Below are positions 5,711 through 14,701 of a stretch of 32,862 nucleotides of DNA, one piece after another. The stretch is from NCBI GenBank assembly GCA_016185435.1, contig JACPNN010000021.1:64269-97130 (forward strand), in the 5' to 3' direction. Numbering within the stretch: the first letter of the stretch is position 1; the number at the start of each line of letters is the position of its first letter. This DNA is from Candidatus Aenigmatarchaeota archaeon. Its GTDB lineage: Archaea > Aenigmatarchaeota > Aenigmatarchaeia > QMZP01. A program made the translations under genes and the position numbers. A model generated the notes under the pieces. It had not been told where the DNA came from and did not search any database. It worked only from the letters and a program-made list of their open reading frames with translations.

Positions 5711-5867
5711 TTACCTTGAGGATTGTGGAGCCTTCACCATCTCCTCAAGATCGGCCAGGTCGAACAGCAGCAGGTTCGGCTCCTTCACCCTCTCCCTGAA
5801 CGATTTCGCAAATATGGCATAGTACTCCTTCCGTGTTCCATTGTTCCACTGGACGAGCTTGGCCTTC
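5698..5867. repeat. 170-bp direct repeat, copy A (3' end of first DUF234 ATPase)
   Basis: This segment matches 7215-7384 in the same orientation with only about six substitutions and no gaps over 170 bp. It covers the last 52 codons of the ATPase gene and about 13 bases beyond the stop. Upstream of the repeat the two genes are strongly diverged, so the identity is local and recent. Confidence 0.9.
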
Positions 5868-7135
5868 TCCCTCAGGCCTGCAAGAAGTTTTCCTGAATCG
5901 ACATTGTCCCGCCACTTGCACTCTACGAGCAGAATATCCTTTGTCTGCTCATTGAGCGAGACGATATCGATTTCAGCTGTTTTCCTTTCGCCTGTTTCCG
6001 TATCCCTGTAAGCGCCCCACCACTTTCCAACATTTGCAGAACCTATGGGGTTGGCTAATCTAACAGCCTCTCTGCAAACAGCCTCAAACTGCCTTCCTAC
6101 GTAAGAATTAAAAGTCTGCCTGAAATTTCTTTCAAATCCCTCAAATAGAAAAGAATCAAGGTCTTTTATGAAAGCGTAAACAAAGCCGAACCAGAATTTG
6201 AAATAATTGTCCTTCAAGGAATAGATGGTATTTCTGCTCTTTTTCTTCGCAGTTATCGGCTTAACCAGTTCTATAAGTTCCAGTCTCTCCAGCGTATTCA
6301 GATATCTCGTCAGGGCTGTCCTTTCAACGCCAAGCGCATTGGAAAGTTCATTCAAAGTGCCCTTTCCTGCAGCTATTTCCTTCAATATGGAGAAATAAAT
6401 TCTCGGCTCCCTTAATTCCTCTTTAAGTATTATTTCTGTCTCCTGATAGAGGAGCGATCCCCTTGTCGCTATTGCTGATCTGGCGTTTTCACATGCTGTT
6501 TTGGTGCCTTCAAACTCAAGGATATACAAAGGTATTCCGCCTGTTATTGAATAGAATTCCACAAGCTTCGCAAACCCTGTGTCTGGGAAAAATTTGACAA
6601 ACTCCCTGAACGGCAGCGGATCAACCTTCCACTGTCCTGTCCTCCTCCCGTATAAGGGAGTTTTTCGTCCAAGAACCTCTGTTTCCATTGAGCCGACGCT
6701 TGAGCCGCACAGGATTATGTGCAAGCCCATCGACTTAAAGTACATATCCCAGTATTTCTGAAGGATTGAGGGTACAGCCTTGTTCGCGTCAACAAGGTAA
6801 GGAAATTCGTCAATAACTAGAGTCAAACCGGCAATTTCCTTCCCCCTGAGGTATTCGGCAATCTGCTTGAACTGGGAAAAGGGGTTTGCCTTGAGTGCAC
6901 TGTCATTGAAGTGCTCTGCAATGTCAGTCGAAAAGGATCCAATAAGCTCTTTTTCCACTTCCTGAGTCGCAAGGAGATATATCGCCTTTTTGTTTTTTAT
7001 AAAATGCTTGATGATTTCTGATTTGCCGACCCTCCTTCTGCCATAAATCACCGTAAGAGGAGCGGGTTTTTTACTCTGGCTCTCGAGAAACTCCAATTCC
7101 TTTTCCCTGTTTATAAATTGTATGAACTTGTTCAT
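5711..7135 (-). CDS. Archaeal ATPase with C-terminal DUF234 nuclease-like domain
   Basis: A 474-residue protein of the archaeal ATPase (PF01637-like) plus DUF234 class. Walker A is YGRRRVGKS at residues 31-39, Walker B LTLVIDEF at 104-111, and a sensor-like LCGSSVG at about 142-148. A winged-helix-like segment follows (LNELSNALGVERTALTRYL). The C-terminal domain carries EIDIVSL and then ILLVECKW, the D...(E)xK pattern of PD-(D/E)xK nuclease folds. Such proteins are abundant in archaea but their role is not settled; defence, mobile-element and DNA-processing roles have been suggested. The last 52 codons are nearly identical in DNA to those of the neighbouring paralogue. The start at 7135 is supported by a TATA box at 7157-7166. 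Confidence 0.9.
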   Translation of the reverse strand: MNKFIQFINREKELEFLESQSKKPAPLTVIYGRRRVGKSEIIKHFIKNKKAIYLLATQEVEKELIGSFSTDIAEHFNDSALKANPFSQFKQIAEYLRGKEIAGLTLVIDEFPYLVDANKAVPSILQKYWDMYFKSMGLHIILCGSSVGSMETEVLGRKTPLYGRRTGQWKVDPLPFREFVKFFPDTGFAKLVEFYSITGGIPLYILEFEGTKTACENARSAIATRGSLLYQETEIILKEELREPRIYFSILKEIAAGKGTLNELSNALGVERTALTRYLNTLERLELIELVKPITAKKKSRNTIYSLKDNYFKFWFGFVYAFIKDLDSFLFEGFERNFRQTFNSYVGRQFEAVCREAVRLANPIGSANVGKWWGAYRDTETGERKTAEIDIVSLNEQTKDILLVECKWRDNVDSGKLLAGLREKAKLVQWNNGTRKEYYAIFAKSFRERVKEPNLLLFDLADLEEMVKAPQSSR

Positions 7136-7156
7136 AATGATTTAATACATACAAAA

Positions 7157-7166
7157 GTATATAAGC
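7157..7166 (-). promoter_or_regulatory. TATA box for the first DUF234 ATPase
   Basis: The minus strand reads GCTTATATAC about 21 bases before the ATG at 7135. No ribosome binding site is obvious, so the transcript is probably leaderless. Confidence 0.55.
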
Positions 7167-7214
7167 TTTAACTCTCCCCACTTCAGATAAGGCAGTATCC
7201 GCACACCCAGTCCT

Positions 7215-7384
7215 CTATATGCTATTTTTCCCTTGAGGATTGTGGAGCCTTCACCATCTCCTCAAGATCGGCCAGGTCGAACAGCAGCAGATTCGGCTCC
7301 TTCATCCTCTCCCTGAACGACTTAGCAAATATGGCATAGTACTCCTTCCGTGTTCCATTGTTCCACTGGACGAGCTTGGCCTTT
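7215..7384. repeat. 170-bp direct repeat, copy B (3' end of second DUF234 ATPase)
   Basis: This is the partner of 5698-5867. One substitution turns the TAA stop of copy A into GAA, so this paralogue runs two residues further and stops at TAG. Most other differences are silent or conservative, for example Val/Met in the SFRERxKEP stretch. Confidence 0.9.
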
Positions 7385-8676
7385 TCTTTCAGCTCTTCCA
7401 ATACCCTCTGCGCATCGACATTGCCTTGCCACTTGCATTCGCAGAAGAGGATTTCCTTTGACCGCTCACTCAGGGCGACAATGTCTATTTCGTAAACATT
7501 CCTGCCTCCTTCATCCCTGAACTTGCCCCACTGCCTGCCTATTTTTTCGAAGAAAAATGGCGTCCCCTCCCTGTTCAGCTTTAACATAAACTCCCTGCAC
7601 ACCTGCTCGAAACTGCGCCCGATAAAAGAGGAAAGATCAGAAGTTATCTTCTCCCTTATCGCAGCGTAGTTCTTTATCTCATATGCGCTCATGTTTCTGT
7701 ATATATATTTGAACCAGAACCTGAAGAAATTGTCTTTCAGAAAATACCTTCCCTTCTTGCTTCTTTCAGGGTTTTTTTCCGTTGCAGGCACATCTTTTGC
7801 CACAATGCCCAGCACCTTGGAAAGGTTTTCGATATACGGCGCAAAAGATGTTTCCTTTATCCCGGCATAATCGCATATCTCTTTCGCGGTGTTCTTCCCG
7901 ATTGCAATGGCAGTTATGATCGAATAATAAGAAGGCACTTCCCTCCCGAATTCCTCTATCAGGATATCCGAAACCTCGTCTTTCAGGGGGGCCAGCTCCC
8001 TCAGCAAAAGGCGGTCTATCGATGACAACGTGTCAGCAATGTTGTAATCGCCTATCAGCGCATAATACATAGGTATGCCGCCGTATATTGAGTACAGTTT
8101 TATTTTCTCTTCAATGCCAGTTATGCCGAAGTCTCCAAGAATGCGTCCTACTGCCTCAAAACCAAAAGGGTCTATGGTCAAAATATTGTGCGCCCTCTTG
8201 AACAAAGGCGCCTTCTGCTCTATGAATATCTTTCTGACCATTCCGACAGATGAGCCGGAAATCAAAAGGAACAGCTTGCCTTTGTGTGCGTCCCATTCCT
8301 TCTGAAGCTCGAAAATAATGTGCGGCTCAATGGACAGGAACCGCTGGAATTCGTCTATGGCTATGACAAGCCTTTTTTCTTTTGATGCATCGAAAAGAAC
8401 TTTCAAGAAGGATGGCCATGTTCCGATTTTGATGTATTCCGGCAGGGAGAGCTCGGAAGATATTATTGATGAGAATTCGGATAGAAGCTCTGAACTCGTT
8501 TTCCTCGGATTCACAAAAAAATAGATCCCCTTAGTCTTGGAAAAGAACTGGTGGATCAGCTCTGTTTTTCCAACGCGGCGCCTTCCCGTTAAGACCATGA
8601 GTATTTTGTGACGCTCAGAGATTTTTCCGGCTGTTTCAAGCTCGTTCAACTCGTTTTCCCTGTTATAGAACTTCAT
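7222..8676 (-). CDS. Archaeal ATPase with C-terminal DUF234 nuclease-like domain, paralogue
   Basis: A 484-residue paralogue of the neighbouring ATPase. Walker A is TGRRRVGKT at residues 30-38, Walker B RLVIAIDEF at 102-110, and SGSSVG follows as a sensor-like motif. The DUF234 part has YEIDIVAL and ILFCECKW, again a nuclease-like D...xCK pattern. The protein outside the last 53 residues resembles the paralogue only moderately, while the last 50 are almost the same, which points to gene conversion or 3'-module exchange. An AAGGTG Shine-Dalgarno sequence lies before the ATG at 8676, with a TATA box about 52 bases upstream, so this transcript probably has a leader of about 25 bases. Confidence 0.9.
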   Translation of the reverse strand: MKFYNRENELNELETAGKISERHKILMVLTGRRRVGKTELIHQFFSKTKGIYFFVNPRKTSSELLSEFSSIISSELSLPEYIKIGTWPSFLKVLFDASKEKRLVIAIDEFQRFLSIEPHIIFELQKEWDAHKGKLFLLISGSSVGMVRKIFIEQKAPLFKRAHNILTIDPFGFEAVGRILGDFGITGIEEKIKLYSIYGGIPMYYALIGDYNIADTLSSIDRLLLRELAPLKDEVSDILIEEFGREVPSYYSIITAIAIGKNTAKEICDYAGIKETSFAPYIENLSKVLGIVAKDVPATEKNPERSKKGRYFLKDNFFRFWFKYIYRNMSAYEIKNYAAIREKITSDLSSFIGRSFEQVCREFMLKLNREGTPFFFEKIGRQWGKFRDEGGRNVYEIDIVALSERSKEILFCECKWQGNVDAQRVLEELKEKAKLVQWNNGTRKEYYAIFAKSFRERMKEPNLLLFDLADLEEMVKAPQSSREK

Positions 8677-8919: not shown

Positions 8920-10929
8920 CTATACCCCAATCTCCACCATCTCAAAGCTCCCCGAGCTGTTCCTCTCGGCCATGGCAATGAAGACGGACTTGGCCTTCTT
9001 ATTGAGGCTGCAGTGCCTGGCCACCTGCTGGATAAGCATGTTTTTTGATTCCTGGCCCGAGCAGAGGAAATGGGTGTTGTCCTGTATAAGCTTGTTTATG
9101 CTTTCCCTGTCAACCGAATCAATCAGGGCCACCTTCAATTTCTTGTCTCCCTTCTTCATATACAATACATTCCCGATCCACTTGGCCTTCCATCCAAATA
9201 AGGAATATGTCTCGAGCACCTCGTCCATGTCCATGGGCCTTACGCCCTCCATTACCGAGAAGTTCTGCCTGAACAGCCTGTATCCATTGTCTGTAAGGAA
9301 ATAGAATGTAAGCCTGTTCTTGCCTATTTTAGCGCCTATAGAGCCTATGAGGCCAGCTCTTTCCAGTCCAGAAGCTCTTCCGGCAAATGTCTTCCCCGAC
9401 ATCCTGATGTCCCTGTAAATCTGGCTTGTGAAGCATCCTGCCCCCGAGCCTATGGACTCTATGACATCCATCGACTTCTGGTCAATGTCCATGTCTTCCA
9501 GGGGAGCATCCTGTGTTTCTGCTTCTTTATCTGTTTCGCCCGTTTCAATTGCCTTCATCCTGCCTCTCATAAAGGACTCAAGAACAGCATCGTTCACGCT
9601 CCCTTTAACAACAGCGACCTCATTGAACCTGACAAGGAAAGAGTCGGTATAAGGCAGTCCCCTGCACAGCATGAAGCCCTGCCCCACAGGCAGCTTCCTC
9701 AGATACTGGCCCTCCTCCTCATAATCAAGGCCAAGCATATTGCTCGCATCCCTTATGTCTGACGCCCTCTGGGAATCCAGCCCCAGGTTCATGTAAATCT
9801 GCGTCGACGTGTTTCCAAGGGCAGGATAGGATACCAGAGAAGGATGCTGGTCTATATAGACTATCCCCATCCCCAACTCCCTTATCTCCCTGAAAATGAG
9901 GTCCATGACAGTCTCAGAGCCAATCTTGACCGACTTCTCCCTGTTAAGGACGTGATGCGCCTCTTCAAGGATAATAACCCCTTTCAGCTTCTCTCTCGAA
10001 TCAGCTGACAGCAGCCAGTCCCGAAGCCACTGGAGCGTGATCTCTATGAAGAATGTCTTGTCATTCGTGTCAAGCGCGTCAAGCTCCAGCACCGTCACTC
10101 TCCCCTCCTTGAAGAATCCGGAAACGTCCACTCCCTTCTCGCAGTCGAACACCTTTCCCATCTCCTTGAAGCAGAGGGATTCCAGCGGCCTTGTAGCCGT
10201 AGAAAGCCAGTTCCTCTCCCTTGGCGGCAATCTCTCTTCCCCATATCCTGAAAGCCAGTCCTTTATGTCCTTAAGCCTCGGGGGCTGCTTCACTTCATAA
10301 ACGGCTTCAAGGGCCTTCATTATTATATGCCTCCCTCCCCCAAGCAGCCAGTAGGCATGGTCGAATATGCTCGCAAACTCCTTTATCCACTGGGACAGGT
10401 GTATCCCCGGCGGCGGTATCAGCGGATTGAAGCTGAAAGGGACTGTATCCCTCCCTATCGTAAAGACATCCACCCTTTCCTTGATTTCTGTCGCAAGCAA
10501 TTCCCTGTAATTCCTTTTGGAAAAGTCAAATATCAGGACAGGGATATTCCTTTTCGCAAGCTGCATTATCAGCCAGTATGACAGATTGGTCTTCCCATAG
10601 CCGGAAGACCCGAAAATGCCTATATGTGTCAGGAAGGAATTCTTACTCAGGCCTATAGGATACATCTCCCTTCTGCCGTACATGACCTTGCCGACCTCTA
10701 TGTCGCCTATAGACGCTGTCTCGGCAGGCATGGGCTCCAGAAGCACGCTTCCCTCCTCGACAGATGATGAGGCAGCCCTTATCACGTCCACAAGCTCAAG
10801 CAGCCTTTGCCTCGTGTCCTCATCCCCCACCAGATAAGCCCTCGAAAGCCTCGCAGCCCCGTCTCTGCCAATAATCGGGATCAGCTTCTTTATCTCCCCT
10901 GAGATCAGCTTTTCTTTATAGTCAGGCAT
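8920..10929 (-). CDS. HerA/FtsK-superfamily ATPase (DUF87) with winged-helix tail
   Basis: A 669-residue ATPase of the HerA/VirB4-like group. Walker A is GSSGYGKTN at residues 107-115, with the family sequence FDFSKRNY just after (134-141). Walker B is VIILEEAHH at 318-326, followed by the sensor region YIDQHPSLVS at 358-367. Residues about 485-555 look like a winged helix (SQIYRDIRMSGKTFAGRASG), ending in a DNG..LF strand. A further C-terminal domain covers 575-669. Such ATPases pump or thread DNA or protein as hexameric rings. No nurA or mre11/rad50 gene is adjacent, so this is not the classical HerA-NurA end-resection operon. The upstream gene encodes a coiled-coil protein 16 bases away, with a GGAGG between them, so the two are probably co-translated partners. 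Confidence 0.88.
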   Translation of the reverse strand: MPDYKEKLISGEIKKLIPIIGRDGAARLSRAYLVGDEDTRQRLLELVDVIRAASSSVEEGSVLLEPMPAETASIGDIEVGKVMYGRREMYPIGLSKNSFLTHIGIFGSSGYGKTNLSYWLIMQLAKRNIPVLIFDFSKRNYRELLATEIKERVDVFTIGRDTVPFSFNPLIPPPGIHLSQWIKEFASIFDHAYWLLGGGRHIIMKALEAVYEVKQPPRLKDIKDWLSGYGEERLPPRERNWLSTATRPLESLCFKEMGKVFDCEKGVDVSGFFKEGRVTVLELDALDTNDKTFFIEITLQWLRDWLLSADSREKLKGVIILEEAHHVLNREKSVKIGSETVMDLIFREIRELGMGIVYIDQHPSLVSYPALGNTSTQIYMNLGLDSQRASDIRDASNMLGLDYEEEGQYLRKLPVGQGFMLCRGLPYTDSFLVRFNEVAVVKGSVNDAVLESFMRGRMKAIETGETDKEAETQDAPLEDMDIDQKSMDVIESIGSGAGCFTSQIYRDIRMSGKTFAGRASGLERAGLIGSIGAKIGKNRLTFYFLTDNGYRLFRQNFSVMEGVRPMDMDEVLETYSLFGWKAKWIGNVLYMKKGDKKLKVALIDSVDRESINKLIQDNTHFLCSGQESKNMLIQQVARHCSLNKKAKSVFIAMAERNSSGSFEMVEIGV

Positions 10930-10945
10930 ACCCCTTTGTCCTCCA

Positions 10946-11515
10946 TCAGTTCTGGATTTGTCTCTCCCCTTTTATGTCCGCAAATATGCCTGTTAGCTTC
11001 CTCTCCATCTCGTACTGCTCAAGCAATTCCCTCATTTCAGTCCTCAGCTCCAGCACATCCCTCCAGAACTGGAGCTTCTCAGTCCTCTTCTCCCTTCTCA
11101 GTATGGATATGTCGAGCTTGAAGTTCCTCTTCTCCATTATGTCCGCCAGCCTCATCTCTATCTCCTGCTTCTCCTTTATGTCGGCCTCTATCTCCTTTAT
11201 TATCTCCTCGTGCATGCCTTTCCTTAAGCTTATCATGTCTTCCGTCTCCTTCAGCCTTTCCCTCAGAAACTCGACCTTCTCAAACAGGCCGCCTATAACC
11301 TCAGGCTTGAGCCTGTTAAGCGATTTTATCTTTTCAGGCTCCCCATGGGGTATGGCCTGCATCACAGGAAAGCCCTTCTCAACAACGTCCTTCTCAGGCC
11401 TCTCTTCAGGCTCCTTCGGAATCCTCACGCTCTTTGAAAGCTCCTTCTGCTGCCTCTTGTGCATGTCATATATGTCTTCGTCTTCGAATTCCCTCGAATA
11501 ATTCTCGTCGTGCAT
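10946..11515 (-). CDS. Long coiled-coil protein, probable partner of the HerA-like ATPase
   Basis: A 189-residue charged protein. Residues 1-75 are acidic/basic and probably disordered. From about 85 to 180 the sequence is almost continuous coiled coil rich in E, K, L and R (FLRERLKETED, EIEADIKEKQEIEMRLA, LRTEMRELLEQYEMERKL). No family was recognised and no membrane span is present. The ATG at 11515 was chosen over one at 11584 because a TATA box at 11537-11546 lies 22 bases before it. The gene ends 16 bases before the HerA-like gene, implying one operon. A scaffold, adaptor or regulator of the ATPase ring is the simplest reading. Confidence 0.8.
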   Translation of the reverse strand: MHDENYSREFEDEDIYDMHKRQQKELSKSVRIPKEPEERPEKDVVEKGFPVMQAIPHGEPEKIKSLNRLKPEVIGGLFEKVEFLRERLKETEDMISLRKGMHEEIIKEIEADIKEKQEIEMRLADIMEKRNFKLDISILRREKRTEKLQFWRDVLELRTEMRELLEQYEMERKLTGIFADIKGERQIQN

Positions 11516-11536
11516 GCGTACACTTAAGACAGCAAG

Positions 11537-11546
11537 CTTTAAATAC
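11537..11546 (-). promoter_or_regulatory. TATA box of the coiled-coil/HerA operon
   Basis: The minus strand reads GTATTTAAAG, 22 bases before the ATG at 11515. It gives this two-gene unit its own promoter, separate from the genes at 11609-12527. Confidence 0.6.
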
Positions 11547-11608
11547 TTTGTCTTTCGTGTCTTGCGTAGGAAATCGCACTTCAATAAGGCCTGTATGTGT
11601 TCCTTGAG

Positions 11609-11983
11609 CTATTCCCTAATATCCGGATATATATCGCTCCGGAACTTCTGATCACATATCGAACTGCAGTTATCCGCTGCAACTGCATTCATGCAGCTTT
11701 CAAAACAGTCTGTGCATTGCCTGTAGTGCTCTGAAACTACAGCATCGCAAGACAAGCCGGAAGCCTTGCAGCTCACGAATTTCCTGCATACATCGCCCGG
11801 CATATATACTGCCAGACATGTGACAGGCTCTCCGACTTCGCATTTGAGATTGAACCCGCTGCAGCTGCTGGTCCTGCAGTTCCCTTTCACATGGCTCTGA
11901 TAATAAAACAAGCCTCCTGCTAAAATCATAACAATAACAAAAACCAGAAGATAGCTGCTCTGCATTTCCAACCTAGCCGACAT
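11609..11983 (-). CDS. Cysteine-rich single-span membrane or secreted protein
   Basis: A 124-residue protein with one N-terminal membrane segment (residues about 11-28, LLVFVIVMILAGGLFYY) and an extracytoplasmic domain of about 95 residues holding 12 cysteines. Several occur in C-x2-C or C-x3-C spacing (CTDCFESC). An even number of cysteines outside the membrane suggests up to six disulfides. No family was recognised. The start overlaps the end of the upstream gene by 11 bases and has GGAAGGGAG before it; an alternative ATG lies six codons downstream. A DsbA-like thiol oxidoreductase is encoded about 0.7 kb upstream (12649-13422), a plausible folding helper. Confidence 0.72.
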   Translation of the reverse strand: MSARLEMQSSYLLVFVIVMILAGGLFYYQSHVKGNCRTSSCSGFNLKCEVGEPVTCLAVYMPGDVCRKFVSCKASGLSCDAVVSEHYRQCTDCFESCMNAVAADNCSSICDQKFRSDIYPDIRE

Positions 11984-12527
11984 AGCTCCCTTCCATCCTC
12001 ATCTCTTCCTGATGCTTCTCCACCATGTCTTCAGAAAGGAAGACAGAAAGCATGAGGCCTGTCTCATAGGCTATCCTGCCGAGGTTGAGGCAGTGGAATA
12101 TCAGGCTGCCTATGGTCTGCCTGTTCTCCGGCAGCTCAATCGCCGCAGCCTCAAGGTTTATCTGCTTCTGGAGGATTTTCTGCAGCGTCTTTTCCCCTCC
12201 TCCCCCTTCTTCGTCATCCTCGCCTTCGCCTTCATAAGGATAGTACCTCAGCCCTATCTCAAAGCCGTGGTTCAGGTGCAGGCCGACAAAATCCCTGACA
12301 TTCTTCTCTATAACCGGATGGTAGATTTCATGCTCCTTGAGCCACCCGAATAGCTCAGCCAGCGATTTCATAAGCTTGTTGATGCTTTCCGTGGCTGATT
12401 TCTGGTACTTCTCCTCGAGGCAGTACTGGAGGATTGTGATCAGAATCTTTTTCGTGCTGCCATCCATATAGGCAGGTATGTCAACATCCACCGTGCAGCT
12501 CCTTCCCCTTATCCTGTGAAGAACCAT
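11973..12527 (-). CDS. Hypothetical protein, mainly helical, with acidic/glycine linker
   Basis: A 184-residue soluble protein with no recognised family. Residues 1-20 are basic and beta-like (RIRGRSCTVDVDIPAY), 25-95 helical, and about 103-115 form an acidic/glycine linker (EGEDDEEGGGG). The C-terminal part (130-175) is helical with a hydrophobic face (IGSLIFHCLNLGR). It overlaps the start of the cysteine-rich protein by 11 bases, so the two are translationally coupled. Two copies of an 11-bp repeat flank a TATA-like AATAAAAGC upstream of the start at 12527. Function unknown; its position suggests a role with the HerA-like block downstream. Confidence 0.65.
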   Translation of the reverse strand: MVLHRIRGRSCTVDVDIPAYMDGSTKKILITILQYCLEEKYQKSATESINKLMKSLAELFGWLKEHEIYHPVIEKNVRDFVGLHLNHGFEIGLRYYPYEGEGEDDEEGGGGEKTLQKILQKQINLEAAAIELPENRQTIGSLIFHCLNLGRIAYETGLMLSVFLSEDMVEKHQEEMRMEGSYVG

Positions 12528-14003: not shown

Positions 14004-14038
14004 AATATAAAGCTTCTTGCACCAAAATGCTTTTTAAT
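14004..14038. promoter_or_regulatory. Divergent promoters for the cupredoxin and GGDEF genes
   Basis: CTTTATATTC on the minus strand (14004-14013) lies about 27 bases before the cupredoxin ATG. CTTTTTAATT on the plus strand (14030-14038) lies 25 bases before the GGDEF gene ATG at 14063. The two core promoters are only about 16 bases apart. Confidence 0.5.
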
Positions 14039-14062
14039 TGTTCTTTATTAGTAGTTATTTAT

Positions 14063-14701
14063 ATGAAAAAATATTACCCTCTCAGGGATCCAGCGGTAGT
14101 AAGGCTTATGAATGAAAATCCCGATTTTGCCAGATACCACATGAGAGTGAGGAAACAGGCCAGAAATGCGAGAATGTATAAAAGAGAGGCAAGAACTGAC
14201 TCTGTGACCGGTCTGGGGAACAAAAGAGGGTATGATGAGCAGCTTGAGAGGGAGTTCTCGAGATCAAAAAGGCATAAATATCCTTTGACCCTTGGCTTTG
14301 GAGACATAAGGGGCTTTGAGGAAATCAATAACATGTCCAGCCATGGAGAAGGTGACAGGGTCCTCAACTGCATTGCAAGGAGACTAGAGGAAGCGGTAAG
14401 GGAGGAGGACTATGTGGCAAGGGTTTATGGCGACGAATTTGGCCTCATTTGCGTCGATGCGTCATCTTCGTCAGCAAAAAGCCTTATCAGAAGAATTATA
14501 CAGCATACCTGCAAAGTCAAGGTAAAGGATGGCGCTGAAATTGAAATGCCAATAAGCATGCGTTTTGCATTGGTCACGTATCCGGACGTCCCTGCAAAGA
14601 CCTGGGAAAACCTCCATGAAACAGCTGACAAAGCCCTGACCAATGTGAGAGACAAAGGGTGCAGCATATATGTTGTCTCTAAAGAGCTTTTTATCCCCTG
14701 A
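14063..14701 (+). CDS. GGDEF-domain protein, diguanylate-cyclase-like, signature YGDEF
   Basis: A 212-residue soluble protein: a short basic helical leader (1-44) and one GGDEF domain (45-205). The entry motif TDSVTGLGNKRGYDE is at 45-59. Aligned by eye to PleD, the metal ligand is Asp81 (DIRGFEEIN, 81-89), the guanine-contacting residues are Asn89 and Asp98, and the signature is YGDEF at 122-126, with Asp124/Glu125 kept but the first Gly replaced by Tyr. The product-inhibition I-site RxxD is intact as R113-x-x-D116, exactly five residues before the signature. The C-terminal ADKALTNVRDKG (188-199) matches the phosphate-binding helix. GGDEF domains are rare in archaea. The start at 14063 fits a TATA box at 14030-14038. 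It ends overlapping the convergent NAD kinase by 11 bases. Confidence 0.88.
   Translation: MKKYYPLRDPAVVRLMNENPDFARYHMRVRKQARNARMYKREARTDSVTGLGNKRGYDEQLEREFSRSKRHKYPLTLGFGDIRGFEEINNMSSHGEGDRVLNCIARRLEEAVREEDYVARVYGDEFGLICVDASSSSAKSLIRRIIQHTCKVKVKDGAEIEMPISMRFALVTYPDVPAKTWENLHETADKALTNVRDKGCSIYVVSKELFIP

Follow-up and report, generated by a model that had tools for sequence, protein, structure and literature searches.

The window analyzed here, a stretch of 32,862 nt from a Candidatus Aenigmatarchaeota archaeon, comes from contig 22 of an archaeal genome of 1.35 Mb (95% complete) and carries, on its minus strand, a gene for a HerA/FtsK-superfamily ATPase preceded by a gene for a coiled-coil protein. 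These two genes are a conserved unit; the block of four genes in which an earlier note had placed them, together with genes for a cysteine-rich and a helical protein, is not. Read at the level of sequence, the pair presents an intact HerA/FtsK-class motor always accompanied by one coiled-coil hairpin protein, a winged helix, a nuclease-type domain devoid of catalytic acids, and repeats in the flanking DNA. We propose, with about even confidence, that the pair is a chromosomal DNA-translocase module made of a HerA-class motor and a coiled-coil adaptor, which would have been domesticated from a HerA–nuclease module and would possess its own operator or loading site. Since this HerA-class motor stands apart from the NurA-linked HerA, always has the same partner and is accompanied by a DNA site that is nearly private, partner, site and substrate are each testable. 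The open-licence literature in PubMed Central yielded no description of the pair, no prior account of a lineage-specific two-gene module in which a HerA-class motor is combined with a dead nuclease and a cis-motif nearly private to it, and no paper dealing with Aenigmatarchaeota together with HerA; the accessible parts of papers on archaeal dark matter and type IV pili do not describe the pair either. The features of the locus are as follows.

8920..10929, minus strand: HerA/FtsK-superfamily ATPase, 669 aa (Pfam/NCBIfam matches, 17-member alignment, motif residues, AlphaFold2 (AF2) model and PDB comparison, C-terminal profile comparison)
10946..11515, minus strand: coiled-coil partner of 189 aa when read from the conserved ATG (alignment A2, AF2 hairpin, same 25 genomes as the ATPase)
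11537..11545, minus strand: TATA-like box TATTTAAAG, located some 25 nt upstream of the coiled-coil ATG (sequence, upstream comparison)
11549..11558, minus strand: repeat ACGAAAGACA, copy 1 of the motif ACGMAAGWC
11558..11567, minus strand: repeat ACGCAAGACA, copy 2 of the motif ACGMAAGWC, in tandem, 9 nt apart
11609..11983, minus strand: cysteine-rich single-span protein, 124 aa, 12 Cys, one hydrophobic stretch; considered, not in the conserved module
11973..12527, minus strand: helical protein, 184 aa; considered, not in the conserved module

The four minus-strand open reading frames (ORFs) described in the earlier note are thus all present, and so are the 12 cysteines and the hydrophobic stretch that it had counted in the single-span protein. 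The coiled-coil ORF has a possible longer form (10946–11584, 212 aa) starting at an upstream TTG at 11584. No significant Pfam family was found for the coiled-coil, cysteine-rich or helical protein, and no Rfam or tRNA match was obtained; a scan for bacterial-type promoters and terminators was uninformative, the host being an archaeon.

To delimit the unit, we relied on profile searches of 156 genomes of the phylum (E up to 1e-5 for the coiled-coil protein and up to 1e-60 for the ATPase). Both genes occur in the same 25 genomes and are same-strand neighbors in all 25; the probability of such an overlap by chance is about 2e-29, a value that treats related genomes as if they were independent, which they are not. 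The intergenic distance, obtained for 25 of 26 loci, is at most 70 nt or an overlap in 19 (exactly 4 nt of overlap in seven), 219–744 nt in five, and 3169 nt in L022, which lies outside the 25 genomes; at the remaining locus, in G033, the two genes are adjacent by coordinates. Some of the longer gaps contain an extra ORF, for example one of 247 aa in G021. When the proteins were used as queries against 41 relatives, own genome counted, the coiled-coil protein found matches in 18 and the helical protein in two (one of the 40 other relatives); in G013 the pair is on contig 58 and the helical protein on contig 23. Relatives of the cysteine-rich protein exist in 5 of the 155 other genomes of the phylum, two of which have the pair on a different contig; they never lie beside the pair, and their neighbors, with products assigned by eye, include genes for purine synthesis and ribonucleotide reductase among other metabolic genes.

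The earlier note had suggested that the four genes could be a dedicated pumping apparatus at the membrane and had proposed their conservation as neighbors as the check. The pair passes that check, whereas the other two genes separate from it in relatives, so that a dedicated system survives as two genes and the four-gene block is rejected. What speaks for the larger apparatus is the arrangement of the window itself, i.e. four genes on one strand with short gaps and one overlap of 11 nt, between the cysteine-rich and helical ORFs. By contrast, the upper two genes are not linked to the pair in relatives, and they are separated from it by the TATA-like box, probably the pair's own promoter, and the repeats; we consider a four-gene membrane pump hardly credible. 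Nor is a membrane location supported for the pair: no transmembrane stretch was detected in 17 ATPases or 18 coiled-coil proteins, the highest 19-residue hydropathy means being 1.32 (range of maxima among the ATPases 0.97–1.32) and 1.23, respectively. As for the pumped substrate, DNA is plausible from the fold of the ATPase, while pumping of protein is without support. In the phylum, the small one-span family with about 12 conserved cysteines (L148–L152 and window 11609–11983) is found in 6 of 156 genomes, where its surroundings are usually metabolic; the member in the window lies near DsbA-like and cupredoxin genes.

The ATPase comprises N-terminal helices (residues 1–55), a motor (76–455), a linker of very variable length across the family, a winged helix (about 484–556) and a C-terminal degenerate PD-(D/E)xK-type domain (about 568–669). 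It belongs to the HerA/FtsK superfamily because of its motif residues, its DUF87 score and its fold matches. Indeed, in alignment A1 (17 members; L060 and the G006 fragment are not included), Walker A, a double-glutamate Walker B, R347, R350 and the sensor glutamine Q361 are invariant in 17/17 proteins; PMC10853773 gives a sensor glutamine, and an arginine finger immediately ahead of strand 4, as features of the HerA/FtsK clade. The DUF87 match reaches 48 bits (cut-off 23.2), in agreement with the HerA-like ATPase of the earlier note, and the superfamily folds align with Z 19–27. In VIA-align the top fold for the AF2 model, which was built from four sequences and has a mean predicted local distance difference test (pLDDT) score of 59, is the C-domain of DndH (Z 27.2, root-mean-square deviation 4.7, 320 aligned residues), further ones being VirB4 (Z 24.5), HerA (Z 22.1) and the FtsK motor (Z 13.8); Foldseek returned HerA, VirB4, TrwB, TdpAB and SIR2–HerA chains. 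The extra winged helix noticed earlier is borne out by profile matches to MarR-type proteins, and the last domain occupies about 100 residues after it.

The coiled-coil protein, which had been announced as a long coiled coil, gave a confident AF2 model of an antiparallel helical hairpin (residues 77–122 and 126–188, pLDDT mostly 94–98) behind a low-confidence N-terminal third. No PDB match was obtained at E ≤0.001; the best had E 0.1 (YscO), followed by Vipp1, HP0958 and CT398. These fold matches are uninformative, as any helical hairpin would do.

The nature of the C-terminal domain was assessed by profile comparison, on which the assignment rests rather than on the AF2 model. Five relatives bearing a nuclease motif (L061, L062, L165, L166 and L167, further ones being found with L061 as query) were aligned with the 17 family C-termini. 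L061, from G033, is a distant relative, 31% identical over the motor, with a readable PD-(D/E)xK motif at its end; L062, from contig 15 of G022, is 37% identical and also ends in such a motif. The contig of L062 carries a sigma-70 gene and may be bacterial, and the tree label 'contam' of L062 is a guess made from that gene. The family C-terminus matched the five relatives with an hhalign probability of 96% (E 3.4e-9) in a comparison that took the winged helix and the C-terminal domain jointly. The catalytic aspartate of strand 2 and glutamate of strand 3 are present in 5/5 relatives and in 0/17 family members; the next glutamate after the strand-3 position is kept in 6/17, as a relic. On this profile evidence, we assign the C-terminal domain of the ATPase to the PD-(D/E)xK-type nucleases, with loss of the catalytic acids.

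The distant relatives also indicate where the pair came from. The protein encoded next to L061 is a coiled-coil protein homologous to that of the family (48.8 bits, the best of 1000 shuffles reaching 6.6). Because L061 thus keeps both a nuclease and a homologous coiled-coil neighbor, the coiled-coil–HerA core is probably older than the nuclease loss, and the family probably dropped cutting while keeping motor and partner. The coiled-coil neighbor of L164 (G129) was not counted, its 1.6 bits being indistinguishable from shuffles (best 11.0). At this locus, three tandem paralogues with twin-arginine-like signals (by eye) lie upstream of a HerA-like motor without C-terminal domains (L164 2974–6263). 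In G135, a HerA–winged helix–nuclease protein with an intact motif (L167 4360–6846) is encoded beside ThiF-like, JAB-like and ubiquitin-like genes (by eye).

The surroundings of the nuclease-bearing relatives bear on a further alternative, that the pair is a working anti-invader system, with the HerA/coiled-coil core as a sensor or trap of foreign DNA, which another protein would cut. L061 is near a TmtA protein (E 1.6e-81), which we take to be Tiamat-like, a DUF6094 methyltransferase, an SNF2-type helicase and an LmuB/AriA-like ATPase, and L062 has a TmtA-like protein and a C5 methylase in its vicinity, so that these intact-nuclease relatives sit near defense genes; in the window, two ATPase_2/DUF234 proteins matching PDC-S27 are encoded just downstream of the pair. 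However, the latter two ORFs clustered with no ORF of the other loci compared, and the recognizable neighbors of the pair in relatives vary and are largely housekeeping genes (ArgRS, FttA, inositol-phosphate synthase). The pair is missing in 8 of the 24 genomes of the window's family, which is compatible with incompleteness alone (5.6 absences expected, P 0.17). Searches for a mobile source gave nothing firm: IMG/VR contigs yielded pattern-matching candidates, none of which was confirmed, and phage and plasmid matches spanned the motor only, none covering at least 80% of the query, with the same outcome for plasmid searches using the nuclease-bearing relatives. A working anti-invader system is therefore unlikely in our view. 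In the motor tree (which lacks G006 and includes L132 and L136 as fragments), the family forms one clade with support 100/99, and the host-family groups f1+f2, f13 and f20 each require one change, the least possible, without mixing. The tree, the absences compatible with incompleteness, the housekeeping neighbors and the lack of a confirmed IMG/VR relative together speak for a chromosomal, vertically inherited gene pair and not for a mobile cassette. The pair thus looks like a domesticated defense module, its nuclease dead and its motor and partner kept.

The two ATPase_2/DUF234 genes just mentioned (window 5711–8676, minus strand) are adjacent and match the PADLOC candidate PDC-S27. Their identity is about 39% overall but rises to 95% along 178 nt covering their 3' ends, which looks like gene conversion. 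On the other side of the pair, window 14027–14701 (plus strand) encodes a GGDEF diguanylate cyclase domain (Pfam E 3.9e-29) with the active-site motif YGDEF, in an archaeal genome.

The DNA upstream of the coiled-coil gene contains, in addition to the TATA-like box, the tandem repeats ACGCAAGACA and ACGAAAGACA. In a k-mer comparison of 22 upstream regions (L050 and L054 left out), CGAAAGAC occurred in seven and CGCAAGAC in six, with 0.2 expected in either case. Sites matching ACGMAAGWC were then counted per region, leaving out L050, a near-copy of L049, and L061: the 6.3 kb of upstream sequence hold 25, spread over 14 of 21 loci, the 14.7 kb of downstream sequence hold 11, from 6 of 22 loci, the 60 kb of the pair genes themselves hold 3, and 256 kb elsewhere hold 7. 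A reversed 8-base control gave 0, 4, 16 and 53 sites, respectively. A site lies within 150 nt upstream of 10/21 coiled-coil genes versus 1/226 other genes of the same loci (Fisher P 2e-11, uncorrected for kinship); this comparison also left out the ORFs of L021 and L061–L065 and those shorter than 120 aa. Note that L021 duplicates the contig of L053, and L133 that of L023. Across the entire genome there are 3 copies of ACGMAAGACA, compared with 19 of its reversed control; the tandem of the window accounts for two of these 3 copies. ACGMAAGWC is thus nearly private to the flanks of the pair. Same-direction copies are 9–11 or 20–21 nt apart in several genomes, a spacing that may point to binding on one face of the helix, although spacings of 13, 16 and 43 nt were also seen.

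The third genomic copy of ACGMAAGACA is on contig 9 of G000 (108027–108036; L174 3528–3537), where it precedes, by about 110 nt, an ORF of 238 aa whose N-terminus is signal-like. Clusters of CGMAAGWC also occur past the ATPase stop, at about 200 nt in L023 and about 300 nt in L051 and L136; no upstream copy was seen in L023, and the upstream side of L136 is off the contig.

The repeats could also be explained by plain transcription, as the operator of an unrelated regulator, with the pair acting as an accessory motor of repair or replication devoid of any sequence-specific role. In many loci the repeats are near TATA-like boxes, and the downstream clusters of L023, L051 and L136, 200–360 nt past the ATPase gene, could be promoters of the next genes. 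Against this explanation, the motif is nearly private to the module, and a conserved winged helix is part of the module. We regard it as quite improbable.

Under the translocase reading, the motor would form a hexamer that moves along double-stranded DNA, and the coiled-coil protein would bind the ring as an adaptor or regulator, controlling or tethering the motor. The winged helix and the dead nuclease domain may act as a DNA clamp, and the repeats may bind the complex or a regulator, serving as an operator through which the module controls itself, and perhaps also for loading. The ancestor would have been a HerA–winged helix–nuclease and coiled-coil module of the mobile or defense kind, which gave up cutting and is today passed on as part of the chromosome. 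Several points weigh against this reading. The shared occurrence of ATPase and coiled-coil protein is no proof that they bind each other, and the ATPase need not be the binder of the motif. The motif was derived by enrichment on the very loci in which it was counted, the independent check being the whole-genome count of one 10-base form; 5 of the 21 loci with upstream sequence have no CGMAAGWC within 300 nt, and the 3 occurrences of CGMAAGAC within the window itself do not exceed chance (shuffle mean 1.72). Besides, the AF2 model of the ATPase is poor, with pLDDT mostly below 55 in the C-terminal third, and support inside the clade is weak for the host-family groups f1+f2 and f20 (28/47 and 52/25).

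The module may move chromosomes, strip invaders or serve uptake. Active restriction is disfavored because the nuclease is lost. By analogy with plasmid partition or TraB-type transfer from a cis site, we also entertain, as a long shot, a self-contained DNA-positioning system of DPANN archaea: built from a defense module by killing the nuclease, the ring and its coiled-coil adaptor would load at their own repeat array, whose copies are often one or two helical turns apart and lie on either side of the genes, and would pull or hold the chromosome.

Among known systems, archaeal HerA–NurA shares the ATPase superfamily of the window protein. The earlier note had described the classical HerA partners NurA, Mre11 and Rad50 as absent; none is indeed nearby, but the genome encodes NurA on contig 5, a 495-aa HerA-like protein about 24 kb from it and beside a family B DNA polymerase (product by eye), and two SMC/Rad50-type proteins elsewhere, as well as a third DUF87 protein of 431 aa. 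The canonical HerA models score the window ATPase at 29.2 and 13.8 bits, for cut-offs of 800 and 970. Because the same genome has a separate HerA of canonical length and NurA, the window ATPase is a HerA-class motor distinct from the repair HerA. NurA was not found next to the pair (in G007 it is on the same contig, about 24 kb away), nor does it co-vary with the pair, being detected in 11/18 genomes with the pair versus 12/23 without; a role with NurA is disfavored for lack of linkage and co-variation.

The closest named sequence family is CedD, the best named NCBIfam match of the window ATPase (71.1 bits, E 7.6e-20), and all 17 aligned ATPases match the CedD, DNA-repair HerA and anti-phage HerA models, with E down to 5e-22. 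Together with VirB4 being among the closest folds, this likeness to the CedD/CedB/VirB4 motor domain would agree with a Ced-like import, in which the ATPase takes DNA through a membrane channel. Yet the score falls far short of the 600 bits required for the family, the match spans the motor only, and the window ATPase has extra C-terminal domains and a coiled-coil partner. Moreover, CedD has a transmembrane domain according to PMC11868833, whereas the pair has no transmembrane stretch and no conserved membrane protein beside it. The missing membrane domain disfavors a Ced-like role, which we consider very unlikely.

FtsK and Streptomyces TraB combine a motor with a C-terminal winged helix on a variable linker and act with short DNA sites. 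The window ATPase has a comparable layout, with a winged helix matched by MarR-type profiles and short repeats in the flanking DNA, and differs from both in having no membrane part, the membrane-anchoring N-terminus of FtsK being absent. It differs from FtsK also in its repeats, which are clustered at the locus instead of guiding genome-wide (ACGMAAGACA, 3 copies in 1.35 Mb), and in its fold (Z 13.8 with the FtsK motor). Archaea are reported to lack an FtsK homologue; a motor of the HerA class has been proposed to do the equivalent job (PMC2958812).

The HerA/FtsK capture systems and DndH, finally, contain active nucleases and more components (PMC10853773 and PMC12839542). A conserved active nuclease, or modification genes in the locus, were found near L061 and L062 only and not in the family. 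The likeness to these systems lies in a HerA/FtsK motor with winged-helix and restriction-endonuclease-fold domains, the C-domain of DndH being the top fold match, while the window module differs from them in consisting of two genes, with a predicted dead nuclease and a nearly private repeat.

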